The notes below the pieces were generated by a model. The model was not told where the DNA came from, searched no databases, and worked only from the letters and a program-made list of their open reading frames with translations. DNA of 64,000 nt from Tubulanus polymorphus (lineage: Eukaryota; Nemertea; Palaeonemertea; Tubulaniformes; Tubulanidae), in NCBI RefSeq assembly GCF_964204645.1, contig NC_134035.1, positions 8,432,501-8,496,500 on the forward strand, written 5' to 3'. The position numbers and the translations under genes were made by a program. Each line of letters begins with the position of its first letter. Within the stretch, counting starts at the first letter, position 1. This document shows, one piece after another, positions 4,451 through 62,591 of this stretch.

Positions 4451-4764
4451 TGATGGGTGAAGATGATGTCTCATACGCCACTATAAAATATTTGAAAATT
4501 ACGTTTCTGCGTGTAGTACCTAACTGTTCTCTATAATAGATCGTTTGGTAGCCTTCGGAAAATTGGTGAAGGTCCGTGAAAACGCTTTGTTGTTTTATGG
4601 TAACCATTAACGGACCCATAATCTAAATAGAATTACAGAATTCAATGAAAATGGATGCGCAATACTCTGTTCGATCGTTAGTCTCCCTTGCACTGATTCA
4701 AGCATTTTCAAGCTGCGTTGATACTCGTTTCCTAAGAGCGATGCATTTTCTTCTATCGTTTCAG

Positions 4765-5113
4765 TCATGACGTCGTACCGATAGTGATGGGCGCGCACAA
4801 GATCGACTACGAACGAGCGGCGCCTCGTCATTCGTTCATTCACGTCGACGATTTCGAATCTCCGCAACACCTGGCCGCCTACTTGCACAAACTCGACAAA
4901 AACGACGCGTTGTACAACGAGTATTTCCGCTGGAAGGGCACCGGTCGTTTCATCAACACGTATTTCTGGTGTCGTCTGTGCACGATGGCGAACGCCGACG
5001 ACGCGCTGAAACGACGCTCGTACGCCGACATCGAAAACTGGTGGCGCGGACCGGGAGTTTGTAACGGTAAAAGTCGCTGGACTGAGGCTACATACGGCAA
5101 AATGTGGTCTTGA
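4765..5113 (+). CDS. alpha-1,3-fucosyltransferase (GT10), last coding exon
   Basis: C-terminal part of a GT10 fucosyltransferase, a Golgi type II membrane enzyme that moves fucose from GDP-fucose to glycoprotein or glycolipid N-acetylglucosamine. The exon follows a polypyrimidine-AG acceptor at 4763-4764 and opens in a split codon, reading HDVVPIVMG, then HSFIHVDDFESP, then a YNEYFRWKGTG stretch and FINTYFWCRLC. These blocks are typical of the end of the GT10 catalytic domain in invertebrate FucT proteins. The stop is TGA at 5111-5113, giving 115 residues in the exon. The cytosolic tail, membrane anchor, stem and donor-site exons are not in the window or could not be found, so which FucT subfamily this is stays open. 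The gene is convergent with the class B receptor that ends at 8013. Confidence 0.9.
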
Positions 5114-8012: not shown

Positions 8013-22160
<14,148 letters not shown>

Positions 22161-41392: not shown

Positions 41393-44300
41393 CTACAAAA
41401 TAAAAGTAAGGGGTCGGTTTTACTCACTGGTATTGACTAAATCTAATAAACCCAGCGGCAAGTTTTATAGACTGGTATTAACTCTAACCGGGGCTAACTC
41501 AATTCTTTTTCCGATTGATTTAATCCCCGGGTTAAAGTTGATACCAGTTTAGGGTCTCATGTCGAGCATTTTTGAGGGACAGTTCTATTTCATCAAGAAG
41601 GAGGGCACTTTTTCGCCTTAAAACCTTCCTATTGAAAAGAGGTCAGATCTCAAAATATGAAGTGCCCTGAATGAATAATTTCAGAATGGATTACTTTTCA
41701 TTTTCCAAAAAACATCAAAATTTTATCCAACAGGTCTCAAACAAAATTCTTTGACACTGACTTTTGAAGGGCACTTTGAAAATTTTAGGGGGGGGGGGCT
41801 CGTTCGCTACCTCTGAAACCCCTCGGCAGGGGCCTATAAAATGGCGTTAAAAATGGCAGCCGTATTGGATTTTGGAGTTGGTCCCATATGTGATATTTGA
41901 GCTCGTCAAACTCTATCATTCCTGTAATATGCATGCTTTTGTTGCCAAAATGGAATAATCTTTTCACCGAACTCCCTGACTAGCCGCATATACTTAGATA
42001 TTAATATAACTGTTCAAAATTTACCGGTGCCGTGGATCCTTGGACACTTTCTCAATCACCAAAGGCGTGTACATGTGTTGTATATATTGGTATTGATATT
42101 TGAGCACATTCAATGCACATTTGCAATAGGTTCATCTTCAGAAATCCCAGCGTTGGTATTTGATATTTCAACGAAAGCTCGTATTTCTGTAACCTGACGA
42201 ACAAGAAATCGCTTTTGCAGGCCCGACTCAATAGTCCCCGTAGTCGCCCCCAGCATTGACTAAAAACGTCGAAGAAATCCCGACGATTACCCAACAATGC
42301 AGGACAAAAGTACCCTAACAAAATGGCAACTGTAAAATGGTTTACTCTTTGTGTATATAATTTTTGTTTAACGTAATTACCTCTGGCAACGGCATCCATC
42401 CAAACTCATCGACAACGTTTGGGTTTTATTGTGTGTTGTGCGGGCTAGGCCTGAAGCTTTTCACTCGTTTCACGACTGTGTGTGGTGTCCCATAAACAGG
42501 AACTATGGTTCAGCGAAATGTCGTTTCGCGAAATCCTGCTGTTTTGTTTCGTAGAAAAACATTTTGCCAAACACAATATTCTACCAGAAAGCACCGCACC
42601 CAGTTGCGAAACGTGCAGAAAAGCGCCTTAGTTTCGTATTTCATATGTTTATATCGTGCTGCGCGCGCAATACCTGACCCTAGGCGGGATTGAATATTAG
42701 GTATTTCAAACATGAGAACTAGCACTCGGTTAAGCGCGGACGTCACATGCGTCGTGTCCACCTTAGAAACTTCAGTCAGCCGTTTACACTTGCCGGACAA
42801 TACACAGTAAAGGCCTAGACGTATCGGCCCCACTCCGCGCAGTGGCGCCACCCCGCGGATTTACGCGAAGCAGCAGAACACAAACACGGCCATTCTCTCA
42901 ATTTTCAATGATAGAAATCGTGTGTGTATTTCAATTATTTCGACTGTTAGGGTTTTAAGGCACAATATAAGTTGATGATGTGATATGGCGATGTTAATTA
43001 ATGATAATTCCGCAGTGAAGCTTGTCACGAACGGTGCCGATTGAGTGTACAGCTGCCAAAAACACTGAAATGTGCGTAGTTGAGTAACTATTTGCAGTGA
43101 ATTGCAGACGAAACATGAAGCCTTAACGGCCGTTTAAAAAAAATTATACCAATCGCAATTGTAAAATAAAAATGAGATAGAACCTAACTTAAAATTCTGG
43201 CCATTTCTAAAATGTTATTGATTATTATTACTAATTTTTAGTCAGTGCAGAACGTTTAGTTTTCCAACAATAATGAGGGGTGGTAGGTAGTCATGCAATT
43301 CAAGTCATCATTTATTACACGTTACTTCCGTGTTGTTGAAAATCTCGCGAGTCCTGGACTAAACCCCAATGAACAATGTGATCTGTGTGCTGGCCACCAA
43401 AATGCACACAGATCACACTACACTACACATTACACACTCCAGTACCCACAGCTTTCATATATCCATCCAAATATTTAGTGGCTTTCTTCCTGGATTTCCT
43501 TACCGAAAGTTTTCGTGTCTGCCGACTACGATTCAATTAAAGTTCACCGGTTCAGGTTTTCAATAGGAATTTTTCTCACAAAGATTATAGATTATATTAT
43601 ATGCATTCGCTTGCCTTTTCCATCATTGACCAATGACAACAAGGAGTATTGTATTTTCAAATAGTGATTGGCTCTGCCAAACAGCGTCTAATGTGATATG
43701 AACCACCGTGACGTCACGTGAATTGAGCTCTTAATACTCTGATAGAAGATATGCATGCTCTAGATTGAAGAGTTCTATATTCTATATTTATAAATGATAT
43801 GAAAACGATATACATATAAACTTACCGAACGGTCGCCATATTCGGGGGCTATGATAATTAGGATGAATATAGCCGGCGTCACTACCAAGTCAATAGAGCC
43901 GGTGGTCGGGAGGAAATATCGAATCCAGTCCACTCGCGGTTTATTCATATCGCGACCAGATAAAGAATAGACTCGACCGCGATCATCTGTAAAACAGTCG
44001 TTGTCAAAGAATGGTTGGCACATTTAAACGATTGATGACTTCGTCACCGAATGTAACTTTAACCAGAGATTCCGAAAACATAAATTTCAGGCTTTCGTCG
44101 AGCCCTATGATTGACCCATATTAGGTACCTATAATACTCTGGTCAAATCTTTGATTGATTTTGGATCGCCAAGCTATCGTGACAAGCCCCGGTGATCGAG
44201 CCATACGTTTCCACCGCACAACCCTCGATATAGATTTGGGCCAGAATGAAATATTGAAGAAAAAAAATTAGTTTATATAATAATTTATTTTGTTGCGATT

Positions 44301-44689
44301 AACTCTCGTAGTGTACGTGCAAACCTCCAGAATCTTCGATCTCTACCGCTTGTGTACTTACGTTTCATATATAACTGGCCACATTTCCCGACCGCTGGTC
44401 TCGCCACCGGTGAAAGATTTCGCAATTGTCGACGGTTTACGATCACACATTCGCCGCGAAGAGAATCGTAGACTACGCCGACACAGCCGGCAATCCGGTT
44501 CAGACAGTTTCCCATGCAAACGAGCTCGTTGGCATCTTTCGCTTTTTCGCTCGGTTCGAAACAGTACGATCCTTTCTTCAAAACGAAAATCGCATCTGGC
44601 TTACCGGACTCGCTCACGGAGGCCACTGATTCACCGGTCAGCTTTGCCACGATTAGTAAACAAGTTAAACTACGCAAAACGTGCGACAT
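41090..44689 (-). CDS. secreted PAN/apple-like domain protein (gene span, 3 exons)
   Basis: Three exons with matching phases give 263 residues. The start is ATG at 44689, followed by a signal peptide (hydrophobic core TCLLIVAKL, small residues near 22-24). Residues 40-105 hold six cysteines, five of them in C-x(15)-C-x3-C-x7-C-x10-C spacing, with CVGVVYD after the central pair. That pattern resembles PAN/apple modules, which bind protein or carbohydrate. Exons 2 and 3 form about 150 residues I do not recognise: predicted beta-strands with two very hydrophobic runs (LVVTPAIFILIII), then DVKIRVTWSNGTV and a C-terminal VFTAFGVVC. The strand layout loosely recalls the farnesoic acid O-methyltransferase-like sandwich found in secreted invertebrate proteins, but this is only a guess. 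There is no GPI or membrane anchor at the end. The likely location is the extracellular space. Confidence 0.72.
41411..41556. mobile_element. inverted-repeat MITE, family 'CCCGGTTTTATAGACTGGTAT', copy 2
   Basis: 'agttttatagactggtatt' and, inverted, 'ttgataccagtttaggg', with 'ccggggctaac' / 'ccccgggttaa' inside. It begins about 20 bp upstream of exon 3 of the minus-strand gene, in its intron near the branch point. Confidence 0.55.
42946..43490 (+). repeat. dispersed ~540-bp repeat, copy 1
   Basis: Reads from GTTAGGGTTTTAAGGCACAA to 'atccaaatatttagtg'. A highly similar copy lies inverted at 57715-58249. No terminal repeats or coding frame are recognised, so its class is unknown. It lies in the intron between exons 2 and 3 of the PAN-like gene. 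Confidence 0.85.
43826..43986 (-). CDS. PAN-like protein, exon 2
   Basis: A 161-base exon following TTTTACAG; the first His codon is split with exon 1. It reads DRGRVYSLSGRDMNKPRVDW and ends APEYGDRS at GTAAGT. The hydrophobic stretch in the middle is more beta-strand than transmembrane in context, but a membrane segment cannot be excluded. Confidence 0.7.
44362..44689 (-). CDS. PAN-like protein, exon 1: signal peptide and cysteine-rich module
   Basis: Starts MSHVLRSLTCLLIVAKL and ends GKCGQLYMK plus one base at a GTAAGT donor. Cysteine-rich motifs include VCMGNCLNRIAGCVGVVYD and GECVIVNRRQL. Confidence 0.78.
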
Positions 44690-48325
<3,636 letters not shown>

Positions 48326-49271
48326 ATGAATTCTACTCAGATGCAAATTGGTCAGACTTATCAAAGCTACATTGTCATCATGTCTGTAGCGAACAGGTCT
48401 GGTAGCTACCTCGTGGTGTCATTGGTCATTCTACCTATCTTGTTTCTGTTTGGAGCCTTCGGGAATTCGGCTACTTTCCTGATAATGTTGAGTAGCAAAT
48501 TTTGGAGTTTTTCTTACGCTAACTATCTTGTCGCTTTATCGGTCAATGATTTTATGTTCTGCATCAATCTATCTTTGATGCCTGTTTTACAATTTGCTCT
48601 CCTGGAAGTAGAAATCGGTCCCATATTCGTGATGAATTCACTGATCAGTTGTCAAGTCTACGAATTCATAATACTCCTCGCATGTTTTAACAGTTCGTGG
48701 TTAATCGTGGCAATATCTCTAGAACGTGCGGCAGTTGTTCTCTTCCCGTTCACATCTCGTTTGATATGCACACCTAGATTCGCTAGATTCGCTATACTAA
48801 TTATCACAGGAGTGAATGTACTGATTTTATATCTTATACCTATCCATACATTTTTCCAACCAGTCTTTCGGATGTTACTATGAATTACATGACCATTTAA
48901 CATACTATACCATTGCAGTCGTCCAAGCTTACATTCTACCATTAGTATTGATAATAACATCAAATTCTGTTATAATATTTCAGTTATTCAGAGGTTCAAA
49001 AATAGTTTCGTCCGATCAAAAAACTACTAAATCAAAACGCACAACAATGATGCTTGTAACAGTTTCACTCGCATTTGCAATATTTACACTTCCGACCACT
49101 GTTACTCTATTCTTACCAATCTCTAATGAGCGGAAGGATTTTCTTTTCGATATTTTCACTCAGGTCCAACAATATAACTATGTTGTGAATTTCTACATAT
49201 ATCTTTTAATGGGACGCGAAATTCGTGCGTATTTCTGTACAAAAATCAGTTGCAAAAAATCAGTCAAATAA
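48326..49271 (+). pseudogene. rhodopsin-type GPCR, array copy 1, frameshifted
   Basis: Homologous along its whole length to the intact receptors at 51420-62591. The first frame runs from MNSTQMQIG through TM1-TM4 and stops at 48881-48883. The rest (TM5-TM7, ending at 49271) is in another frame. Compared with the paralogues, about 5 bases are missing near 48840-48848, between TM4 and ECL2, and that causes the shift. An in-frame upstream ATG at 48296 would add ten residues. Divergence is otherwise moderate and no other stops are seen. It may be a recent pseudogene, or a sequencing error or segregating allele could hide an intact gene. Confidence 0.8.
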
Positions 49272-51419
49272 CTATTGATTTTAACCTGTGTTTTCGCAGC
49301 CCGTCAGAAGATTTCACGTTTTTTCTATGCAACTGTAAATGGTTATTTAAACCTTTGGACAATTGAAAGTTTATTTTTCGATGAATCATTGGAATTTAAC
49401 AATAGATGCCAATCTTTCTACAAAATAAACAAAGACTCAGGTCAAAAATTGAATGTACGCATGTTTTGTATATGCCCACTTTTTAACTTTCAAGAAGCTA
49501 ATTTGGCGCTAGTCCTGATCCAGTATGATATATATAGTTTATTTTCAAGAGAGATTATAACAGATGGTAATGCATTACATTTCGTTAAATATGAATACAG
49601 TGAAGGATAACCCGATAGAAAGCAGGAACCTTGTTTGAATCACTGGGCCACCTTAAACACTTAAGCACACAATCACACATAATTAATTGCCCTCGCATAG
49701 ATTCCAACAGCAAGTAACATAAATTAATGAAAAGGCGGATGGATGTCATACTTTGTCTTCTTCGGTCAGTGTTAACAGCAGTTGACCGTTGACAGTCGAC
49801 AGCTTGAGTCGACGAGGCAACCTGTCAACAAGAACAGAAGTTATGAAAGTTATTCCACCTAACATTTTTGTTCATGATTTTCATTGTCTCTCATAAATCC
49901 ATTGCATGTATACTTAGAAGGTTTATGAGGTTGCGAATGATTTTGATGATATTAATATTTCAAAACACAAACAGGTACTTATACATATCATTGAAATATA
50001 ATATATATTTAGATAACTATATCAATTGGTTAGAGGTTTTTTGAGGACACATCACGGTTATTGGGTGGGATGTTTAATGTTCATGTGACGATTCTTTGGT
50101 CCTAGATAACGTTGGGAAGGTTTTGGCATATAATAGTTTAGACTGTGAATGATAACAAGAAGGCATTCAATTTTGTAAAAGAAAATCATGACCAAATGAA
50201 ATAAAAATATCGCGCATCAGCTACATTTCTACCATGTGGAAGATGTCTCTTTGAGGAAATTAGTGAACTATTAATATTATTCTTTGTTTGGAAACATGAA
50301 TTATCATTGATATTATTGACATGTAACGCTAGCATATAATAATACAATATAAAGAACACAATAATGATAATTGATTTTTGGAGTGATTGACTAGGTAAAA
50401 GATGTCCTCGAAACAAAAGATAAAGACTATAAGTATACGGAACTTAACTGACGTGTAGGTTGTCATGTGCACATAAGTTATTACCTTACTACTAGTGTGC
50501 AGGGTGTCTACCTGTCAACCGTCCTGTGCAGTCATCGTGTGTAGGGTGTCATTTGTCAACCCTCCTATACAGTCATCACCTCTTGTAGGGTGTCCGCTGT
50601 CAACCGTAGTGTGCAGGCACCACCTAACTGGCGTGTAGGGTGTCATCTGTCAACCGTCCTGTGGAGTCATCGCCAAACTGGTATGTAGGGTGTTTACTGT
50701 CAACTGTCCTGTACAGTCATCACCCTAGTTTGTAAGGTGTCGCCTGTCACCAGCTGTAGGATATAGATCCTCAATCTAGGGTCTATATGATTGTGGACTC
50801 CTTTTAGTTCCATATTGCTACGCTTTTATACTTCAGCTTGCGCATAAATTCCTTGATTTACTGCAAAAGTAACTCTTCGCGTTGCACTATAATGCCGTAT
50901 ATCGGACTTGGGCCCAATTTATAAAACAGGTGTTTATTTAGATCCAACAAGTCTTCAGACCATGGACGTATGAACTAGATAATTCAATGTATAAGCAGTA
51001 TTATAATGTTAATGTTATCGGGATTCGATGGCATTCTGACCTCTGGGAATAAAATGAAAGACGTAGTTATTTTAGGCCTAATAACCTGCTCGGGGTTTAC
51101 TAGATATTTCACCATCGATATTACTTTGTGTCCGAGATTTCTATTCAATTTAGTAACCTTTGTATCTAAAACATTAGCAAAATTTACAAATTCGAAAAAA
51201 ATTATGTTTAATATTTCAGAAAATTGATCTTCATTGTCGGTCCACAAGGAATTGCGGACAAAGCTATAATTTCACCGTTTCAAAACCTATCGAATGACAA
51301 ATGAATATTAGCTCCACAAATGAGACATAATTGTGGATCTATTTCACCCTAAATTTATTTTCCAATAAACAAGCGGGTATACTCAAACGTAATCAGTTAG
51401 TTCTTCGACTCCGTCAATC
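49272..51419. other. spacer between receptor copies 1 and 2
   Basis: 3' flank of copy 1 (with 'ctttggacaattgaaag', also found after the copy at 61635), a degenerate minisatellite at 50450, and the 5' block of copy 2 at about 50920-51300, which recurs near 56000 and in part at 62905-62985. No gene recognised. Confidence 0.55.
50450..50765. repeat. degenerate minisatellite, ~45-bp unit, ~7 copies
   Basis: Repeated 'gtgtagggtgtcatctgtca' followed by 'accgtcctgtgcagtcatca' with many substitutions and small indels. Unit starts are near 50453, 50497, 50540, 50584, 50632, 50682 and 50730. Confidence 0.85.
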
Positions 51420-52370
51420 ATGAATCTTACTCGGATACAAACTGCTCGAACGTATCACAGTTATATGGTCATCATGTCTATAGCAGACAGATCTGGCAGC
51501 TACCGCGCGATATCGTTGTTCATTCTACCGATTTTGTTCCTATTCGGAGGCTTTGGCAATTCTGCTACTTTCCTGATAATGATAAGTCGCAGATTCAGAA
51601 GTTTTTCATACGCTAACTACCTCGTCGTTTTATCAGCCAGTGATTTTGTGTTTTGCATCAGTCTATCTTTGATGCCCGTTTTACAGTTTGTTCTGTTGCG
51701 CGTACAAACTGGCCCAATATTAGTGATGAAATCAGTGATCAGTTGTCAACTGTACGAATTCGTAGTAATACTCGCTGGCTGCAACAGTTCCTGGTTAATC
51801 GTGGCTATATCTGTAGAACGCGCAGCAGTTGTTCTCTTCCCGTTCACATCTCGTTTGATATGTACACCGACATTCGCTAGATTCGCTATATCCATAATAA
51901 CCGGAGTGAATGTTCTGATTCTTTATCTTTTACCTACTCTATCGATGCATTTTTCCGACAAGTCTTTTGGATGTTATTATGAATCAATTGACCGATTAAC
52001 GTTTTTTACGAATATTGTTATCACCCTCTACCTTCTACCTTTGACGCTGATTATTGCATCGAATTCTGTTATAATATGTCAGTTATTCAGAGGCTCAAAA
52101 ATGGTTTCGTCTGATCAGAAAACTGCAAAATCAAAACGTACGACCATAATGCTCGTAACAGTTTCACTCGCATTCGCAATGTTCACACTTCCGACCACTG
52201 TCACTGCATACCTACCGATCCCCACGAAACGGAAGGATTTTCTATTCGATGTTTTCACTCAGTTCCAACAGTGTAATTATGTGGTGAATTTCTACATATA
52301 TCTTTTACTGGGACGAGAAATTCGTGGATATTTCTGCACAAAAATCCGTTGCAGTAATTCAGTCAAATAA
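51420..52370 (+). CDS. orphan rhodopsin-type GPCR, array copy 2 (intact, intronless)
   Basis: A 316-residue single-exon 7TM receptor for the plasma membrane; its ligand is unknown. ATG at 51420 aligns with the start of all paralogues. Landmarks: NLT sequon at residue 2; TM1 GGFGNSA (N47); TM2 LSASD (D75); Cys109 and Cys185 for the TM3-ECL2 bond; ERA at 133-135 instead of DRY; Pro207 in TM5; FTLP (Pro258) in place of CWxP; NFYIY at 290-294 instead of NPxxY; cysteines 306 and 311 after TM7. The LLLGREIR end and ERA-plus-'LFPFTSRLICT' ICL2 resemble FMRFamide-receptor-like peptide GPCRs. The gene is a mosaic: codons 1 to ~130 match the broken copy at 54375, while the rest and ~400 bp of 3' flank match the copy at 56321. 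Confidence 0.92.
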   Translation: MNLTRIQTARTYHSYMVIMSIADRSGSYRAISLFILPILFLFGGFGNSATFLIMISRRFRSFSYANYLVVLSASDFVFCISLSLMPVLQFVLLRVQTGPILVMKSVISCQLYEFVVILAGCNSSWLIVAISVERAAVVLFPFTSRLICTPTFARFAISIITGVNVLILYLLPTLSMHFSDKSFGCYYESIDRLTFFTNIVITLYLLPLTLIIASNSVIICQLFRGSKMVSSDQKTAKSKRTTIMLVTVSLAFAMFTLPTTVTAYLPIPTKRKDFLFDVFTQFQQCNYVVNFYIYLLLGREIRGYFCTKIRCSNSVK

Positions 52371-52810
52371 CCATTGATTTCAACCCGTAATTGCACGTAT
52401 CGTCTGCAAATTACACATTGTTTTTTTTTTTCTGGCCATTTACTATGGAAAATCGTTGTTCTGATACCTCATAGAAAATGTATCGGCCCAAGTGTAGAAG
52501 TAGTTCCAGTAGTTTATATTCTACCGCCCCCCTACGGAGTATGTTCCTGCTTATCTTCGGGTCATGGCATTAACTGTAAAACTGGCCCTTGAATCACAGG
52601 GAACTGAAATAACTTTACTCTAAAACAATGTTACCATATTTGATCTACACTTTATTCAACAACAGCTATACAAAAAAAACATCTAAAATATTTGCTATGT
52701 ATTAGAATTAACAATTTCAATATATATGATCACAGGATCTCCAGAGTATATGTGCAGCTGACTGGATGGCTGGATGACTAATGGACAATGGATGATCCAA
52801 TGACTGTATA

Positions 52811-52930
52811 CTTTCGCTCACTTCAACAGTGCAACGATGTGGTGCATTTCTAGATATAACTTTTACTGAAACGAAAAATTCGTCAATATCTCTCGACCAT
52901 AATCCGTTGTATAGAAACTCATTCAAATAA
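52811..52930 (+). pseudogene. 3' relic of a receptor copy (TM7 end)
   Basis: About 120 bases match the last 40 codons of the receptors: 'cacttcaacagtgcaacgat', 'gtggtgcatttctagatata', 'cttttactgaaacgaaaaat', ending 'tcattcaaataa' like the intact C-termini. Stops and substitutions are plentiful. It marks a lost gene between 51420 and 53363. Confidence 0.75.
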
Positions 52931-53362
52931 CGATGATTTCAAGTTTGATTGCTCCATTAAACTAACGATTACACATTCATAGACGTTTCACTCGCGTTAA
53001 TGACTTAATTTGAGCGACTTTTTTACAACCACGTGTTTGACCATGACCTAGATCTATTTTTACAGTTAAAATTTACTTGCGAGATATATTGATTCACACT
53101 CGGAAAGCATATTCAATTTAGCTATATTTTATATTTTACACATCTAATTATCTTTCATATATCTGAGTGCATCGTGTTTTTATCGAAGATCTATCAACAA
53201 TGAATCGCGGACAAATGATAAAAATTGAATAACAAATGAAAAAGCTTCATAAATATATGATACATTATAAATATCTCTGTGTGAATTAAATAAATATCAA
53301 TATAAATTCATTTTCCAATACATGATTGACTACTGTCGGAGAGTGCATTGTCCGCATGAATC

Positions 53363-54319
53363 ATGAATTCTTCTCAGATGCAAATTGGTCGAAGTTATAA
53401 TAGTTACATTGTCATCATGTCTGTAGCGAACAGGTCTGGTAGCTACCTCGTGGTGTCATTGGTCATTCTACCGATCCTGTTTCTGTTGGGAGCCTTCGGG
53501 AATTCAGCTACTTTCCTGATAATGATAAGTCGCAGATACAGGATTTTATCTTACGCTAACTACCTGATCGTTTTATCAATCAGTGACTTTATGTTCTGCG
53601 TCAATCTAACTTTGATGCCTGTTTTACAGTTTGTTCTGTTGCACGCAGAAACTGGTCCAATTTTTGTGATGAATTCACTGATCACTTGTCAAATCTACGA
53701 ATTCGTTACAGCACTGGCGTCATGTAATAGTTCGTGGTTAATCGTGGCTATATCTATAGAACGTGCGGCAGTTGTTCTCTTCCCGTTCACATCTCGTTTG
53801 ATATGTACACCGAGATTCGCTAGATCTGTTATACTGATGATAACGACAATGAACGTACTGGTTATATGTTTTCTACCTATTCTATCGATGTATTTTACCA
53901 ACCAGTCTTTCGGATGTTACTATGAATTATTGGACCAATTTACGTGTTTTATCGTAATTGTCGTCCACGCTTTCATTTTACCTTTAACGTTAATCGTTAC
54001 ATCGAATTCTGTAATAATATTTCAGTTATTCAGAGGTTCAAAAATGGTTTCGTCTGATAAGAAAACTGCAAAATCAAAACGTACGACAATGATGCTTGTA
54101 ACAGTTTCACTCGCATTCGCAATATTTACACTTCCGACCACTGTCACTGTATACCTGCCAATCTCTACGGAGCGGAAAGATTTTCTATTTGATGTTTTCA
54201 CTCAGTTCCACCAGTGTAACTATGTGGTGAATTTCTACATTTATCTTTTACTTGGACGAGACATTCGTGAATATTTCTGTACAAAAATTCGTTGCAGAAA
54301 ACCAGTCAAATATCTATAG
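53363..54319 (+). CDS. orphan rhodopsin-type GPCR, array copy 3 (intact, intronless)
   Basis: A 318-residue 7TM receptor. It differs from the copy at 61635 at about 11 residues (roughly 96.5% identity by my count) and more strongly from 51420 and 56321. N-terminal sequons at residues 2 (NSS) and 23 (NRS); GAFGNSA in TM1, LSISD in TM2, SIERAAVV, FTLPTT in TM6 and NFYIYLLLGRDIR at TM7/helix 8; the tail ends CRKPVKYL. An out-of-frame ATG seven bases upstream (53356) opens a 14-codon frame overlapping the start. The intronless structure plus spliced neighbours elsewhere suggest an ancestral retrocopy or a naturally single-exon family. Confidence 0.92.
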   Translation: MNSSQMQIGRSYNSYIVIMSVANRSGSYLVVSLVILPILFLLGAFGNSATFLIMISRRYRILSYANYLIVLSISDFMFCVNLTLMPVLQFVLLHAETGPIFVMNSLITCQIYEFVTALASCNSSWLIVAISIERAAVVLFPFTSRLICTPRFARSVILMITTMNVLVICFLPILSMYFTNQSFGCYYELLDQFTCFIVIVVHAFILPLTLIVTSNSVIIFQLFRGSKMVSSDKKTAKSKRTTMMLVTVSLAFAIFTLPTTVTVYLPISTERKDFLFDVFTQFHQCNYVVNFYIYLLLGRDIREYFCTKIRCRKPVKYL

Positions 54320-54374
54320 ATTTCAACCTGAATTTGCACAGAACGTCACACAATTAATACACAATTTATTTATA

Positions 54375-54982
54375 CTATAGCAGACAGATCTGGCAGCTAC
54401 CGCGCGATATCGTTGTTCATTCTACCGATTTTGTTCCTATTCGGAGGCTTTGGCAATTCTGCTACTTTCCTAATGATAATGATACGTCGCAGATTCAGGA
54501 GTTTTTCATACGCTAACTACCTCGTCGTTTTATCAGCCAGTGATTTAGTGTTTTGCATCAGTCTATCTTTGATGCCCGTTTTACAGTTTGTTCTGTTGCG
54601 CGTACAAACTGGCCCAATATTAGTGATGAAATCAGTGATCAGTTGTCAAGTGTACGAATTCGTAGTACTACTCGCTGGCTGCAACAGTTCCTGGTTAATC
54701 GTGGCTATATCTATAGAACGTGCAGCAGTTGTTCTCTTCCCGTTAACAGCGTGATTGATTTGTACACCGAGATTCGCTAGATTCACCATATTGATAATAA
54801 CCGTAGTTAATGCACTGATTCTGTATTTTCTACCTACTCTATCGATGTATTTTTCCGACAAGTTATTTTGGATGTTATTATGAAGCAATAGACCGTTTAA
54901 TGTTTGTTTTTATGAAAATTGTTTTCAGCCTCTACGTTTTACCTTTAACATTGATTATTATTTCGAATTCTGTCGTAATATT
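54375..54982 (+). pseudogene. truncated GPCR pseudogene, array copy 4
   Basis: Begins abruptly 55 bp after the stop of copy 3, at the point equal to codon 20 of 51420 (ADRSGSYRAIS), and is almost identical to 51420 up to ERAAVV. An Arg codon has become TGA (54752-54754), a base is inserted near 54865, and homology stops at ~54982 within TM5. It has no start, TM6 or TM7. Its 5' half being closer to 51420 than 51420 is to 56321 shows conversion between copies. Confidence 0.85.
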
Positions 54983-56320
54983 TGTGATACCCCTTGCTCC
55001 GTGAGAATAAAACGCCGAACAAGATTTGCAGCAAATTTAAGAAGATTGGACTACCGAGGCTGTATCAAATTTCAACCTTTCAGTGCTGCCCCTATGAATA
55101 ACGATAGCGGGATTTCTGTGAACTAAAATATTCGCGCATATTTAACACGGAATGTGAATTTGATGAAAGTTGCTTGTTATGTACAATACGGACAACTGTT
55201 GCGCCCAATTCTAATAAACTATGATATTTTGAATCCTTAATCCTTAATTTTGAATGATATTTCCATATTTCTTAGGTAATTCTATTTCTTGCAAAATCTC
55301 TCTTGCTTATCTTGATTTGTATTTTTATACAGGATATATAGCAATTAAATTTTTGAATGATCTGATTCATTCACTAGCTGAGATACTGACAAAACTTCCA
55401 ATTTTTGTCTTCCATGATATATATTGCGAGAAAAAAAGCCGAATGAAGACAACCAACATCCGTCGCCCTCTCCCAAGTAAAATGCAAATACCCGAATTGT
55501 AGAAAAATTGCCAGTGAAGTATATAATTGTGCTGTTTTAAGAGTCTGATAATTTTTTTCGGAATCCGGCCCGCAAATCTGTAAATAGTTTGTTCAAAGAC
55601 TTTGGCAAACGAGTATTCTGTTAGTTCACGTTTTCCCCGCTGTCTATATACTTAGTGGCAGCACTAGACAGGATAGGATTTTTTTTCTGTGGCGGGAGAA
55701 TTCAATAACGTTCCATCATGTGCTTATCTGTTTATGGGGCCCCCGGAGCACAAGGTGAAAAATTACATTTTTGCGTGGGATTGAAATAATCTTTTCGTTC
55801 GAATGAAATGTTTTTAGCGGGAATTTTTATAAAAGTTATGTACAAGTAGTCTCTTTTTTCAACAAAAGAAACAAGAACAAATGATTGAGAATGAACCGAT
55901 ACAAGTAGAATGTAGGTAAACGAATATTTGTGCTCGAACTCTCGACAGTATCATTTGATGGGATGCATTTAGATGGCATTCTGACCTCTGGGAATGAAAT
56001 GGACGTTCAGTTATTCATGTCTGTTCGGGTGTTTTACTAGACATTTCACCATTGACTTGTGTTCGAGAATTCTATATCTGATACAATAGCAAGAATTAAC
56101 AAATCCGAGTAAATTGTGTTAGATTTCAGAAAATTGATTTTCGTTCGCTGTCAACAATGAATCGTGGACAAAGTGAAAATTTCAAAAATTATCAAAACTA
56201 ATTGAATAACAAATGAATATCAGCTTCACAAACAAGACGTTATTGTGGATCTATTACAATCTGAATTCATTTTCCAATAAGCGACCGAGTACGTTAAACG
56301 GTTCTTCGATCACGTCAATA
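54983..56320. other. spacer and 5' flank of array copy 5
   Basis: Sequence right after the broken copy is unrelated. From about 55970 it matches the flank upstream of 51420 ('ggcattctgacctctgggaa') and copy 1 ('gtgttttactaga.atttcac'). No gene is recognised; an 82-codon frame at 55254-55502 has no features. Confidence 0.5.
56020..56205 (+). promoter_or_regulatory. conserved 5' block shared by receptor copies
   Basis: 'gtgttttactagacatttcac', 'tgtgttcgagaattc' and 'aacaatgaatcgtggacaaa' occur in the same order 115-300 bp upstream of the start here, before 48326 (47970-48150) and, partly, before 51420 (51090-51260); the last element also lies before 53363 and at 58340. It is a candidate core-promoter/5' UTR region, but recent duplication alone could explain it. 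Confidence 0.35.
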
Positions 56321-57271
56321 ATGAATCTCACTGAGATGCAAATTGCTAGCAGCTATCATAGTTATATGGTCATCATGTCTACAGCAAACAGATCTGGTAG
56401 CTACCGTACGCTTTCATCAGTCATTCTGCCTATATTGTTCGTGCTTGGAGCTTTCGGGAATTCAGCTACTTTCCTGATTATGATAAGTCGTAGATTTCGG
56501 GGATTATCCTACGCTAACTATCTCATCGTTTTATCAGTCAGTGATTTTGTGTTCTGCATCAATCTAACTTTGATGCCTGTTTTACAGGTAGTTCTCTTGA
56601 ACGTAAAAACTGGTCCAATATATGTGATGAATTCGCTGGTCGGTTGCCAGATCTACGAATTCGTAGTACTACTCGCAGGCTGCAACAGTTCCTGGTTATT
56701 AGTGGCTATATCTGTAGAACGCGCAGCAGTTGTTCTCTTCCCGTTCACATCTCGTTTGATATGTACACCGACATTCGCTAGATTCGCTATATCCATAATA
56801 ACCGGAGTGAATGTTCTGATTCTTTATCTTTTACCTACTCTATCGATGCATTTTTCCGACAAGTCTTTTGGATGTTATTATGAATCAATTGACCGATTAA
56901 TGTTTTTCGCGAATATTGTTATCACCCTCTACCTTCTACCTTTGACGTTGGTTATTGCATCGAATTCTGTTATAATATGTCAGTTATTCAGAGGTTCAGA
57001 AATGGTTTCGTCTGATCAGAAAACTGCAAAATCAAAACGTACGACGATAATGCTCGTAACAGTTTCACTCGCATTCGCGATATTCACACTTCCGACCACT
57101 GTTACTGCATACCTACCGATCCCCACGAAACAGAAGGATTTTCTATTCGATGTTTTCACTCAGCTCCAACAGTGTAATTATGTGGTGAATTTCTACATAT
57201 ATCTTTTAATGGGACGAGAAATTCGTGGATATTTCTGCACAAAAATCCGTTGCAGTAATTCAGTCAAATAA
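56321..57271 (+). CDS. orphan rhodopsin-type GPCR, array copy 5 (intact, intronless)
   Basis: A 316-residue 7TM receptor when started at the ATG shared with its paralogues (MNLTEMQIASSYHSY). The frame is open for 36 more codons from 56213, but the same flank carries stops before 51420, so I take it as 5' UTR. Motifs: GAFGNSA, LSVSD, SVERAAVV, FTLPTT, NFYIYLLMGREIR. From about codon 125 to past the stop it is nearly identical to 51420; before that about a quarter of residues differ. The 3' flank to ~57715 also matches 52371-52790. Confidence 0.92.
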   Translation: MNLTEMQIASSYHSYMVIMSTANRSGSYRTLSSVILPILFVLGAFGNSATFLIMISRRFRGLSYANYLIVLSVSDFVFCINLTLMPVLQVVLLNVKTGPIYVMNSLVGCQIYEFVVLLAGCNSSWLLVAISVERAAVVLFPFTSRLICTPTFARFAISIITGVNVLILYLLPTLSMHFSDKSFGCYYESIDRLMFFANIVITLYLLPLTLVIASNSVIICQLFRGSEMVSSDQKTAKSKRTTIMLVTVSLAFAIFTLPTTVTAYLPIPTKQKDFLFDVFTQLQQCNYVVNFYIYLLMGREIRGYFCTKIRCSNSVK

Positions 57272-57714
57272 CCATTGATTTCAACCCGTAATTGCGCGTA
57301 TCGTCTGCAAATTACACATTGTTTTTTTTCTTCTGGCCATTTACTATAGAAAATCGTTGTTCTGATATCTTATAGAAAATGTATCGGCCCAAGTGTAGAA
57401 GTAGTTCCAGTAGTTTATATTCTACCGCCCTACGGAGTATGTTCCTGCTTATCTTCGGGTCATGGCATTAACTGTAAAACTGGCCCTTGAACCACAGGGA
57501 ACTGAAATAACTTTACTCTAAAATAATGTTACCATATTTGAGCTACACTTAACAACAGCTATACAAAAAAAAAACATCTAAAATATTTGCTATGTATTAG
57601 ATTTAACAATTTCAATATATATGATCACAGGATCTCCAGAGTATATGTGCCGCTGACTGGATGGCTGGATGACTGGATAGACTGGTCGTCTGGACAATGG
57701 ATGACCCACGTAGA

Positions 57715-58249
57715 AAGACACTAAATATTTGGATGGATATATGAAAGCTGTGGGTACTGGAGTGTGTAGTGGGTAGTGTAGTGTGATATGTGTGCATTTG
57801 TGGCCAGCACACAGATCACATTGTTCATTGGGGTTTGGTCCAGGAGAATAACGTAGGTGGAGATTTTCAACAACACGGAAGTAACGTGTAATAAATGATG
57901 ACTTGAATTGCATGACTACCCACCACCCCTCATTATTATTGGAAAACTAAACGTTCGGCACTGACTAAAAATTAGTAATAACATTTTAGAAATGGGCAGA
58001 ATTTTAACTTAGGTTCTATCTCACTTTTATTTTGCAATTGCGATTGGTATAATTTTTTTAAACGGCCGTAAAGGCTTCATGTTTCGTCTGCAATTCACTG
58101 CAAATAGTTACGCAACTACGCACATTTCAGTGTTTTTGGCAGATGTACACTCAATCGGTACCGTTCGTGACTAGCTTCACTGCGGAATTATCATTGATTA
58201 ACATCGCCATATCACTTCATCAACTTAAATTGTGCCTTAAAACCCTAAC
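57715..58249 (-). repeat. dispersed ~540-bp repeat, copy 2 (inverted)
   Basis: Reverse-complement copy of 42946-43490. In the paralogous flank after 51420 this place holds instead 52800-53110 (including the receptor relic), so the repeat was inserted, or replaced that piece, after the block duplication. Confidence 0.85.
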
Positions 58250-59384
58250 ATATTCAATTTAGCTATGTTTTATATTTTACACATCTAATTATCCTTCATG
58301 TTTCTGAGTGCATCGTGTTTTTATCGAAGATCTATCAACAATGAATCGTGGACAAATGATAAAAACGCAGTCTCAAATGTTTTGTGACTTTCTCAAAATG
58401 TATCAAAAATTTAACTAATTTTTAGTTCATAAGTCCTCAAATATTCATAAATGAACAGTTAAAAATTGTTGGAACTTGTCGACTCTGCCGTAAAATAAAC
58501 TTATCAACAGTCCGGAATGTGGGATAATGTCGGGCTTTAGAGAACATCATGCCCCCGAGGTCTTCACATTTACAGAAAAGATTACGTAAGGGATTCACGT
58601 GCAGCGCACGATAGGCGCACAATAGAAATCCGCTCGTTCTTTGAGTGTCACCAATTAAGAGGACCGCTTTTGTGAAAATTGACTTTGGGAGGAATATTCC
58701 TCCCAAGGTCAAACGAAGAGAATTTGACCTTCAGGTCTGATATTCAAAGTCAAGCAAAGGAAACTGGACCTGGTCTGTTATTCGAAATATAGACTTTGGG
58801 ATGAATGATTTTCCAAACCACTAAACGCTTAAAACCTGAGCTTATATTAATTATATTGGTGTAATCAATGTTTTTGATAAGTAGTATACTATAGTGACGA
58901 CACCAGACATATTTAGGCAATTTGGGTGATAATGTACACGGTATACACGGTATTCGAGGGTCTGCGACAAATGATTTTTAGAAAGTTAAATAGCTGTAGT
59001 GCAGGTTCTTATGTTTAGCCTAATATAGTCTTCACATCGCAATCAGTTGTTATAATGCTTCTTCCTTTTTCTTGACTTGATCTTGAGTCTTTGACTAGTT
59101 AAATTTTTTCTTGATTGATTGACGCTGGGAGGTCTAAATCAAATCATATTGTTAATCAAATCAATTATTTTTCAACTGCAAATTCACACTTAATATTGAT
59201 ATTAATGATGAATATTACTTATTTCATTATATAGCGCACTGCTGCAAATTGTAATCACTGTGCATTGCATGATTATAAAATTAACACAAGCTGAAAAAAT
59301 TGGAATGTAAATACGTGGATGATAAAAATCAAGTTAAAAGGTGTAGGGGCGGAGACATCTGGCGAAAAAAAAAAACAGTAATGG

Positions 59385-59820
59385 GCGCAAAATGGACCCG
59401 TGCCTAATTGCCCGACAAAAAACGACGGACCAGACCTGAGTCAAATTAAGCGTGTTAACTTAAACTGGTTCTGGAAGTCAGTCACTTCGCTTTGTTTAAG
59501 TATGGACTCGTTTTAGATTCCATGGTTTAAGCATTGGTTAGTATCGAATGAATGGGTTTGAATTTGAATGTGAAATGAATTTGATCATGAAAATCGGCGC
59601 GCTCATTGGTAAGCCATGCGTAAAATTTAAGTCGGACCTCATTCGAGCCAAATTAGCCCCGACAAATCGTCTCTATAGCCGCGATCACACGTGCATTTTT
59701 GGGCCGTGCCAATTTTGGCCCGTGTCAAACAACTGTTCACACGGGTACCAAATGGGCCCGAGCCTATTTAGAGAGCGCGTTCACACGCAAACCATTCACT
59801 CACTGATTGAGTGACGTCCT
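59385..59820. repeat. dispersed repeat with GGCCCGTG-type units, copy 2
   Basis: The right half (59665-59820) matches 10218-10345 directly; the left half holds the inverse of 10345-10400 ('acttcgctttgttta'). The arrangement suggests a foldback element. Confidence 0.55.
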
Positions 59821-60234
59821 GTTGCACAGGCTATATTACACCATGCTAAAAAGCCTATTATAGACGAGTTGGATTCCTCGATGTATAAATGCAGGGAGGG
59901 TCGGTATCTTTATGTTCAATAACATTAGGTTCCTATAAATGGTTGCTCTATGCATTTCAAAATAAATTAAAAAAAATCTACGTTAAACGCGATATCTGTT
60001 TCATTACATTTCATTGTGATATATCGGGGAATCTCTGCAATAAAATTTGACGACTACAAAACTATTACCAAAATGAGCAAATTGCGATTCTTAGTGATAT
60101 TTGCTAACAGTATGAATTCTAGCGTATACGCGGATTTGTGTGAAATGTAATAAGTATCGTAGCGAATAATCAATGAGAAAAGTAGCTAGATACCGTAGCT
60201 AGATATGACAATTAAAAATCCCATATCCAGAATA

Positions 60235-61010
60235 TCTCCCTCAAAATACCTTGATCCGTTCAAAAAAGACCCCCCTGGTAAAAATCTCCTGTGTAGAAAT
60301 CTAAAAAATCTAAACCCTGAATAAACATGGTAAACATACCCTGGGTAAAAATCCCCAAATATTCATCCCTACTTGGTAATTGTCAAGAACATTTCAAATC
60401 ACGATGTTTCTCCAATTTAATTTATTTGCAATGAGACTGAAATATGTTTGAAATTTTTAATGAGATCTTTCGTTGCGATAAATTCTTGAGGATAAAATAA
60501 ATTGTAAGAATTAATAAGAGTAATAAACTTTTATTTGTAATATCTTAAGATTCGAACTGGAATATTTTTGAACTGCGGACTCTTGTTAACGTGTGGTATA
60601 TTTCAGCTGTGCGATGCCATGAATTATTAGAAATAATGTACTTTTGATATTAGATATTTTAGATTGAAGCTAGTGTAATATATTTGAAATGTGCAATGAA
60701 CCCCTTCACTAAGCTGTGCAATAACTACATGTATATGTACTAATTTAGTATGAATGAAACGTTAATTTGTAGTATGTTTTAATTCAAAAAGCATATTTTG
60801 TATGGGCATATTGATATCCTTAAGGTGTTCGACAGTAAAATATGAATAAATTGGATATACGTATCGATAATACGAATTAATTGACCTTTAGAATGTATCT
60901 ACTTATAATCCCTTCAAAGGGGGGATTGCCTACTTTGAAGAATTGGGGATTTTTACCGAGGGGATTTTACCTAGGGGATTTTTACTCAGGGGATTTTACC
61001 ACTTACCCTT
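60235..61010. mobile_element. possible TIR element, ~775 bp
   Basis: The left edge carries 'ctggtaaaaatctcc' and 'gggtaaaaatcccc'; the right edge carries the complements 'ggggatttttaccgagggga' and 'ggggatttttactcagggga'. Multiple short inverted copies at both ends resemble the ends of a non-autonomous DNA transposon. No transposase. Confidence 0.5.
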
Positions 61011-61634
61011 AGCAATGCACTGCGATGAACAATTTACTTTGTTTTGCTAAATTAACTACTTGTATTCAATTCACTATAGAACTGTGGTCGATCCTAACAA
61101 AAGGTCCGGCCTGCTATTCTAAACTTCATTGGACATAAATCTCTTTCTAAAAATTATATTGCTAAGATATTCCTAGTCTTCATCCTTCAGCATGAACTCT
61201 AGATTTTGGGCCTGGATATATTTCAGACTCATTAAATGGTATCATGTGTGTGTAGAACGTTTGGGCGAAGGTATTATCCCCCGGTTTCACTCGTAAAACC
61301 AACAGAAAAAATATTTTCATACATAGGTCACCGCATTATAGAAATTGAACTGTTGACAAGTTGTATTAAATATCTATAGATGAAACACTTTAAAGCAAAA
61401 CGCATTATGTTTGTAGTTTCTTTATATCTCCTATTGACTGTGCGCCTCGGGCTCAGTCAACTCGTCATCTCCATGATTGAAATATTTGATTAGGCAGTCC
61501 TATGAAAAGTGGCGTAAATTCATACAAGCGAATAATTTGTTGTTTCCAAAGATTGAATAACAAATGAAAAAAAAATAATACATTTTCCAAAACACGGTTG
61601 ACTACTGTCGTAGAGTGCATTGTCCGCATGAATC

Positions 61635-62591
61635 ATGAATTCTTCTCAGATGCAAATTGGTCGAAGTTATAATAGTTACATTGTCATCATGTCTGTAGCG
61701 AACAGGTCTGGCAGCTACCTCGTGGTGTCATTGGTCATTCTACCGATCCTGTTTCTGTTGGGAGCCTTCGGGAATTCAGCTACTTTCCTTATAATGATAA
61801 GTCGCAGATTCAGGATTTTATCTTACGCTAACTACCTGATCGTTTTATCAATCAGTGATTTTATGTTCTGCGTCAGTCTAACTTTGATGCCTGTTTTACA
61901 GTTTGTTCTGTTGCACGCAGGAACTGGTCCTATTTTTGTGATGAATTCACTGATCACTTGTCAAATCTACGAATTCGTAACAACACTGGCGTCATGTAAT
62001 AGTTCGTGGTTAATCGTGGCTATATCTATAGAACGTGCGGCAGTTGTTCTCTTCCCGTTCACATCTCGTTTGATATGTACACCGAGATTCGCTAGATCTG
62101 TTATACTGATGATAACGACAATGAACGTACTGGTTCTGTATTTTCTACCTATTCTATCGATGTATTTTACCAACCAGTCTTTCGGATGTTACTATGAATT
62201 ATTGGACCAATTTACGTGTTTTATCATGATTGTCATCTACGCTTTCATTTTACCTTTAACGTTAATTGTTACATCGAATTCTGTAATAATATTTCAGTTA
62301 TTCAGAGGCTCAAAAATGGTTTCGTCTGATAAGAAAACTGCAAAATCAAAACGTACGACAATGATGCTTGTAACAGTTTCACTCGCATTCGCAATATTTA
62401 CCCTCCCGACCACTGTCACTGCATACCTGCCACTCTCTACGGAGCGGAAAGATTTTCTATTTGATGTTTTCACTCAGTTCCACCAGTGTAACTATGTGGT
62501 GAATTTCTACATATATCTTTTACTTGGACGAGACATTCGTGAATATTTCTGTACAAAAATTCGTTGCAGAAAACCAGTCAAATATCTATAG
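61635..62591 (+). CDS. orphan rhodopsin-type GPCR, array copy 6 (intact, intronless)
   Basis: A 318-residue 7TM receptor, near-twin of 53363, with the same start context (an overlapping out-of-frame ATG at 61628) and C-terminus CRKPVKYL. Differences include a Tyr-to-Phe change in ICL1, Glu-to-Gly in ECL1 and a few in TM4-TM6. All landmark residues are kept: N of GAFGN, D of LSISD, the two disulfide cysteines, ERA, FTLP and NFYIY. Its distal promoter region is split off by the 3.2-kb insertion, so its expression may differ from the twin. Confidence 0.92.
   Translation: MNSSQMQIGRSYNSYIVIMSVANRSGSYLVVSLVILPILFLLGAFGNSATFLIMISRRFRILSYANYLIVLSISDFMFCVSLTLMPVLQFVLLHAGTGPIFVMNSLITCQIYEFVTTLASCNSSWLIVAISIERAAVVLFPFTSRLICTPRFARSVILMITTMNVLVLYFLPILSMYFTNQSFGCYYELLDQFTCFIMIVIYAFILPLTLIVTSNSVIIFQLFRGSKMVSSDKKTAKSKRTTMMLVTVSLAFAIFTLPTTVTAYLPLSTERKDFLFDVFTQFHQCNYVVNFYIYLLLGRDIREYFCTKIRCRKPVKYL

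Follow-up and report, generated by a model that had tools for sequence, protein, structure and literature searches.

A stretch of 64,000 nucleotides from the nemertean Tubulanus polymorphus (contig NC_134035.1, positions 8,432,501 to 8,496,500; hereafter the window) carries a row of similar receptor genes, some of them broken, and raises the question of what such an array is for. The original prediction described a one-strand tandem array of six copies and one relic, and six-frame open reading frames (ORFs), tblastn, and nhmmer and hmmsearch run with filters off all agree with it in placing seven copies on the + strand between positions 48326 and 62591. The array makes up only a minor part of a family that counts well over a hundred members across the genome. 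Our reading, to which we assign a probability of about 0.6, is that the family, apparently lineage-specific, is a very large set of single-exon class A G-protein-coupled receptors (GPCRs) which would serve as a repertoire of receptors for chemical cues.

The array and its family in the genome

Four of the seven copies are intact single-exon class A GPCR genes, namely c2 (51420..52370; 316 amino acids), c3 (53363..54319; 318 amino acids), c5 (56321..57271; 316 amino acids, or 352 if translation starts at an in-frame ATG further upstream, at 56213) and c6 (61635..62591; 318 amino acids). Their proteins are 74-97% identical by tblastn, with c3 and c6 sharing 97% and c2 and c5 88%. The remaining three copies are dead: c1 (48326..49268) is a full-length pseudogene in which a 5-nucleotide (nt) deletion at nt 521 of the coding sequence breaks the frame; c4 (54375..54986) is a truncated pseudogene covering coding nt 59-663, with a stop at 54752-54754 and, compared with the remaining copies, three insertions, one of 1 nt and two of 3 nt; and a relic of 120 nt (52808..52927) is what is left of another copy at its 3' end (nhmmer E 5e-18; tblastn 58-61% over 33 residues). 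The earlier description of the genes as intronless holds for the coding sequence, which is the part covered by the demonstration. At the locus L023, the copies at 2953 and 7446 carry the stretch TTATTTTCAG about 17 nt before the ATG; it could be a splice acceptor, and some family members may carry an intron in the 5' untranslated region. Several repeats accompany the array. An inverted pair of 0.55-kb repeats, 92% identical, lies at 42945-43493 and 57706-58250, the second copy within the array, and looks like a mobile element; a 117-nt piece adjoining it (58249-58365) recurs at 53108-53224. Between c1 and c2, at 50491-50749, units of 41-50 nt are repeated in tandem.

The assignment of these genes to class A rests on the Pfam 7tm_1 profile, because the CWxP and NPxxY motifs and the tryptophan of the fourth transmembrane helix (TM4) differ in many class A receptors. 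The four intact copies match this profile at E 2.5e-15 to 5.5e-17, with 57.1-62.5 bits against a cut-off of 30.5, and the scanned front piece of c1 and the scanned piece of c4 reach 2.2e-5 and 1.2e-5, respectively. The class A hallmarks GNS, SD, the cysteines C109 and C185, ER and LP are invariant in the intact copies; other hallmarks are altered, in that CWxP is replaced by FTLP and NPxxY by NFYIY, and tryptophan is absent from TM4 and TM6. The peculiar motif set noted at the outset is real: ERA, FTLP, NFYIY and LGREIR or LGRDIR can be read directly in all four intact copies, with TM6 in the form FAIFTLP or FAMFTLP and NFYIY in TM7. For comparisons across the family we used 44 full-length copies, comprising the four from the window, 24 from a DNA search of the genome and 16 from a protein search, after exclusion of those in L009, L010, L014, L016/L050, L021 and L027 that are broken or partial. 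The commonest forms among these 44 are VVNFYIYLL (31) and AFAIFTLPT (21), and glutamate occupies the first position of the DRY motif in the four intact window copies and in 44/44 overall. NCBIfam yielded no match above its cut-off, and neither Rfam matches nor tRNA genes were found in the window; scans of public viral and prokaryotic contigs, which detect close relatives only, returned none. We found no description of this receptor family in the open-licence literature.

The search of the 268-Mb assembly (77 contigs) reveals the extent of the family, with counts that are lower bounds, the matches listed for the c3 protein ending at E 4e-139. With this query at least 125 loci were recovered from 1941 first-look candidates, and in all 125 scored places the match spans almost the full length, with an identity of at least 68%. 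No in-frame stop is listed for 107 of these places; the other 18 list one, and 10 of the latter run to query residue 317-318, the expected normal end. A divergent copy as query gave at least 126 matches, 93 of them common to the c3 search. The union of both protein searches with a whole-gene DNA search (45 rows, four short matches being left out) amounts to at least 165 loci, to which a search with a conserved 71-nt stretch (see below) adds eight known by that stretch alone, giving at least 173 loci on 14 contigs. Most listed loci are about 70-80% identical to c3. Further copies are suggested by the first-look candidates of the DNA searches, 554 with the gene and 444 with the 71-nt stretch as query, and a rough mark-recapture estimate of 204, drawn from non-random samples, gives a hint at the total.

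The loci are strongly grouped. A listed neighbour within 50 kb accompanies 111 of the 173, the other 62 having none; 76 of the 125 places found with c3 are grouped, where random placement puts 5.9 in groups on average and never more than 16 over 500 runs (the length of contig C5 being a guess). Of the 58 pairs of neighbours among these places, 51 share a strand. With three of seven array copies dead and at least 173 loci genome-wide, the proposal of an expanding tandem family with dead members is borne out, and the count of paralogues that it called for is large. Two loci, L048 (C2:7514838) and L049 (C2:7498886), are nearly identical in the tree and 16 kb apart, which points to a very recent duplication. 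Short tandem repeats around CAGTACACTCTCAGACAGT stand immediately before the start codon in L018, L024, L025, L049, L051 and L055. A CCAAT-like upstream box was considered as a family-wide promoter element and rejected, being present in just 13 of 36 copies.

Variation along the gene and exchange between copies

The family copies are under purifying selection. The ratio of non-synonymous to synonymous substitution rates (dN/dS) in the 945 usable of 946 pairs has a median of 0.28 and a range of 0.15-0.51, with a median synonymous rate (dS) of 0.55. The ten pairs of window copies, c1 being one of the copies compared, lie at 0.23-0.39, and those of c1 with the intact copies at 0.23-0.31, so that c1 was mostly under purifying selection before it broke. 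The suggestion that such a family might evolve as pathogen-facing receptors finds no echo in these values, no whole-gene pair of the 945 exceeding 0.51.

The variation is unevenly distributed along the protein. In 28 copies the entropy minima fall in the intracellular loops (ICL2 0.15, ICL1 0.40, ICL3 0.41), and the maxima in the first extracellular loop (ECL1; 1.10), TM5 (1.05) and ECL3 (1.02), with ECL2 and TM4 within 0.91-1.10; the helix limits are approximate, and the hydropathy scan did not flag TM7. Between c3 and c5, codons 152-222 hold 39.7 non-synonymous changes against 21.6 expected (0/2000 shuffles), an excess matched by the best of all 71-codon windows in 4/2000 shuffles, and synonymous changes in the same codons are not raised (589/2000). 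This test was used because another sign, a surplus of clade-fixed differences in TM4-TM5, is confounded by exchange between c2 and c5 and was discarded as evidence. To judge from these sequences, the pattern of variation fits a ligand-sensing family.

The exchange in question is recorded in c2, which is a mosaic with a c4-like front and a c5-like back. At the 104 sites that distinguish c4 from c5, 58 of 60 in the front favour c4 and 41 of 44 in the back favour c5, the switch between informative sites placing the recombination breakpoint at 51800..51813 on the + strand (coding nt 381-394). The contrast between front and back in the c2-c5 pair was equalled in 0/500 shuffles, against 389/500 for c3-c6, and the near-identity of the back halves of c2 and c5 continues for about 400 bases beyond the stop. 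Hence, c2 is the product of unequal exchange or conversion between neighbours. Other pairs also show heterogeneity within the coding sequence, at nt 639 (1-2/500 shuffles), which reflects the slow evolution of the 3' part; the c2-c5 signal alone goes far beyond this. A recombination hotspot at ICL2 was likewise considered and dismissed: in a test that took the best triplet for each of the 44 copies, with permutation counts uncorrected for that choice and with c4, the partner of c2, outside the set, 5 of 44 breakpoints fall at nt 357-423, no clear excess over the three or so that its share of the gene would give.

The conserved stretch in the second intracellular loop

Synonymous diversity in codons 139-149, within ICL2, falls in the 44 copies to 0.06 of the expectation from the codon usage of the family, against 0.42 gene-wide (0/2000 shuffles). 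This island, taken as codons 139-154 with coordinates obtained by arithmetic from the start codon, lies on the + strand at 48740..48787 in c1, where it has two synonymous changes, at 51834..51881 in c2, 20-35 nt downstream of the breakpoint of that gene, at 53777..53824 in c3, at 54734..54781 in c4, where it is decayed and contains the premature stop, at 56735..56782 in c5 and at 62049..62096 in c6. The c3 island is contained in the 71-nt stretch mentioned above (53758-53828), which is at least 97% identical in 40/40 scored places on nine contigs. Search bias was rejected as the cause of the island, whose strength is the same whether one takes the 16 copies that came from the protein search (0.05; 6/2000) or the 28 others (0.07; 9/2000).

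Repeated local conversion of intracellular segments is the simplest reading of this island and its likeliest cause. Synonymous and amino-acid variation co-vary along the gene (Spearman 0.70-0.86), and local conversion fits because the two rise and fall together; synonymous diversity is reduced in further intracellular segments too, as conversion predicts. For the island only, the alternative is that selection acts on the DNA or RNA sequence itself, as a cis element, a small-RNA target or a recombination site, in place of gene conversion, and we regard this as the less likely of the two. It draws on the sharpness of the window of low diversity, on the near-identity of the 71-nt block and on the commonest base reaching a share of 0.95 or more at 7 of 8 fourfold columns in the block, compared with 11 of 56 elsewhere. 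Even among near-invariant amino-acid columns, synonymous diversity is lower in the block (0.117 in 14 columns) than in the remainder (0.357 in 83; 2/5000), and ordinary codon bias fails as an explanation, 12 of the 18 consensus codons (136-153) not being those preferred by the family. Set against this is the copy L071 (C12), which retains 11 of 16 block codons of c3, compared with 48/70 and 82/108 in the rest of the gene, so that its block is no better kept than the remainder; L072, for its part, has changes in 2 of 16. The changes in the L071 block and the two synonymous changes in the broken c1 speak against a hard constraint on the DNA. Nor is any alternative reading frame clearly conserved; one antisense frame is open for at least 56 amino acids in the 38 copies, out of 44, in which an anchor could be set, a count made with no control run.

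A more specific and distinctly unlikely version of selection on the nucleotides would have the island of about 48 nt act at once as receptor code and as a shared cis element, through which a single factor or small RNA addresses the copies together, for example so that each cell silences every receptor except one, or through which the halves TM1-3 and TM4-7 recombine in register, as happened in c2 upstream of the island.

Relatives, rival roles and significance

The relatives of the family in the same genome bear on its ancestry. An ORF beside two copies at L023 (122-1204) is 28% identical to c3; among its own matches are L068-L070 (41-43%) and, at about 25-30%, many members of the family. A tree built from 19 proteins of this genome separates the family, together with L068-L070 and this ORF, from the eight highest-scoring 7tm_1 genes with 100/100 support, the split being unrooted, the root set at the midpoint and 3 of the 16 inner branches reaching the 100/100 standard. 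In a comparison confined to these proteins, c3 matches L068 at E 4e-27 and the best of the eight 7tm_1 genes at 0.005. L068 passes the Pfam Srw profile (28.2 bits against a cut-off of 22.2), and the C. elegans srw genes are, in the excerpt of PMC4862687 used here, the one chemoreceptor group with a recognisable likeness to FMRFamide receptors; this and the other papers cited below are drawn on in excerpt. None of the six scanned window ORFs passes Srw, the best reaching 10.1 bits, and one of the six passes Srsx (25.6 against 24.1 bits). The closest relatives of solved structure are galanin receptor 2 (E 2.3e-10) and cholecystokinin (CCK) receptor A, followed by neuropeptide FF (NPFF) receptor 1; leukotriene B4 receptor 1 is likewise among these matches. 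On these sequences a distant relationship to the Srw-like group fits best. The original prediction had proposed a peptide-receptor branch of FMRFamide type recruited to another task: a descent from a peptide-receptor branch remains plausible by way of L068, which groups with the family, while the window copies themselves fall outside Srw and their best solved relatives are the galanin and CCK receptors.

Several known clustered class A repertoires, many of them single-exon, offer parallels. Among the candidate chemoreceptors of Aplysia, AcCR subfamily b numbers 38 full-length genes and subfamily c 24, and they are expressed in the rhinophore or the oral tentacle (PMC2700072). Like the family described here they are uninterrupted, clustered class A genes with a short N-terminus and a conserved arginine at the end of TM3, their products being 319-364 (b) or 324-433 (c) amino acids long; the present family differs in having at least 173 loci, and the likeness drawn here is one of gene features. 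Biomphalaria has 241 seven-transmembrane genes in fourteen clustering subfamilies, one scaffold carrying 14 genes of which two are truncated (PMC5440852); the present genes resemble these chemosensory GPCR-like genes, by description, in being clustered with truncated members, and differ in that one subfamily alone attains at least 173 loci. The ApORs of the crown-of-thorns starfish and the surreal GPCRs of sea urchins also form tandem rhodopsin-like arrays, for instance 12 in 140 kb, although the ApORs, likened here by description, average 522 amino acids against 316-318 in our copies (PMC5442662). The chemoreceptors of the C. elegans srw and planarian Srw groups are approached through L068, the family itself lying below the profile cut-off (PMC4862687). 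The flatworm PROF1 or Srfb receptors are similarly intronless, and share with our copies the TM6 pattern F...T.P and the TM7 pattern NF..Y of PROF1-II and the TM2 pattern LS..D of PROF1-I (PMC3261222, PMC6114109). Unlike PROF1-II, however, our copies have in TM2 an aspartate which Table 3 of PMC3261222 assigns to groups I and III, and the full motif set matches no single PROF1 group set out in the excerpted part of that paper. PROF1 proteins have aspartate at the DRY position (Table 3) and mostly lack BLAST matches to other GPCRs (PMC3261222), whereas ours have E-R-A and clear 7tm_1 matches. We therefore do not file the family as PROF1: the TM3 variant differs, and the likeness to other GPCRs is clear (7tm_1 to E 5.5e-17, galanin receptor 2 at 2.3e-10).

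Under the reading as a chemical-cue repertoire, the variable helices and loops would form the ligand pocket of each receptor, and all receptors would switch the same G protein through the near-invariant ICL2, ICL3 and helix 8. The E-R at the end of TM3 would form the ionic lock, with FTLP and NFYIY standing in for the CWxP and NPxxY switches. Tandem duplication and the swapping of gene segments, c2 being a likely example, would give rise to new specificities, and repeated conversion between copies would keep the intracellular parts alike. The ancestor was probably a peptide-receptor-like relative of Srw.

A number of points weigh against this reading. The sensory role is something we infer from the sequence. 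Purifying selection prevails throughout, with no sign of an arms race in the 945 pairs, and the breakpoints of the best-triplet mosaics in the 44 copies are scattered along the gene. The link between synonymous and amino-acid conservation could also be due to selection at the nucleotide level. The placement of pocket positions depends on the approximate helix limits, and the single-sequence structural model has a mean pLDDT (predicted local distance difference test score) of 37.2, too low to be of use. Further, the family itself does not reach the Srw cut-off, and Srsx is passed by a single window ORF.

Among other roles, that of an expanded internal set of peptide-hormone or neuropeptide receptors tuned to endogenous, perhaps RFamide-like, peptides survives best, and we consider it rather unlikely. 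Hormone systems usually keep far fewer receptor loci than the at least 173 of this family. The galanin, CCK and NPFF receptors as best solved relatives argue for such a set, but this likeness is generic, the matches including leukotriene B4 receptor 1 as well. Additional points in its favour are the Srw-like neighbour group, given the likeness of Srw to FMRFamide receptors (PMC4862687), and the flatworm PROF1 receptors with similar TM6 and TM7 motifs, all of which a classifier assigned as peptide-responsive (PMC3261222). A reproductive or cell-niche receptor family has a precedent in planarian ophis, a GPCR of a chemoreceptor family acting in the somatic gonad (PMC4862687), but ophis is a single gene and we hold this role to be highly improbable. 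Least probable of all is that a mobile element carries the copies and that most of them are inert, their number reflecting transposition and not function: the spread over 14 contigs, the loci lacking a close neighbour and the repeat pair near and inside the array would agree with it, but dN/dS is 0.15-0.51 in all 945 pairs, no common travelling element is seen because few pairs among 28 copies share the flanks adjoining the gene (28/378 upstream, 14/378 downstream), and most scored places lack an in-frame stop, though the listing favours good copies.

The window holds other genes outside the array. A class B (secretin-type) GPCR gene of several exons occupies 8013-21875 on the - strand, with HRM domain pieces at 21654-21875 and 20632-20811 (the second just below the cut-off) and a 7tm_2 piece at 13238-13477. 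The calcitonin receptor is the best match of the first HRM piece and the secretin receptor that of the 7tm_2 piece, and the ORF at 8013-8558 may, by eye, be the C-terminal end of the gene. An exon of a family 10 fucosyltransferase lies at 4736-5110 on the + strand (Pfam Glyco_transf_10, E 5.3e-27), and an ORF at 44288-44722 on the - strand has, by eye, a signal-peptide-like start and a weak PAN match (E 0.038, below the cut-off).

The receptor repertoire belongs to a known kind and is a new, very large example of it. Large chemoreceptor repertoires arise repeatedly in animals from different class A stocks, and this one is unusually large and uniform, with at least 173 loci of one subfamily. 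A comparison with the Srw-like group that this genome also contains could reveal how such a repertoire grew out of a stock resembling peptide receptors. The part that is unexpected to a specialist is the ICL2 island, which poses a testable choice between concerted evolution of the segment that couples to the G protein and an addressable element common to the receptor genes.

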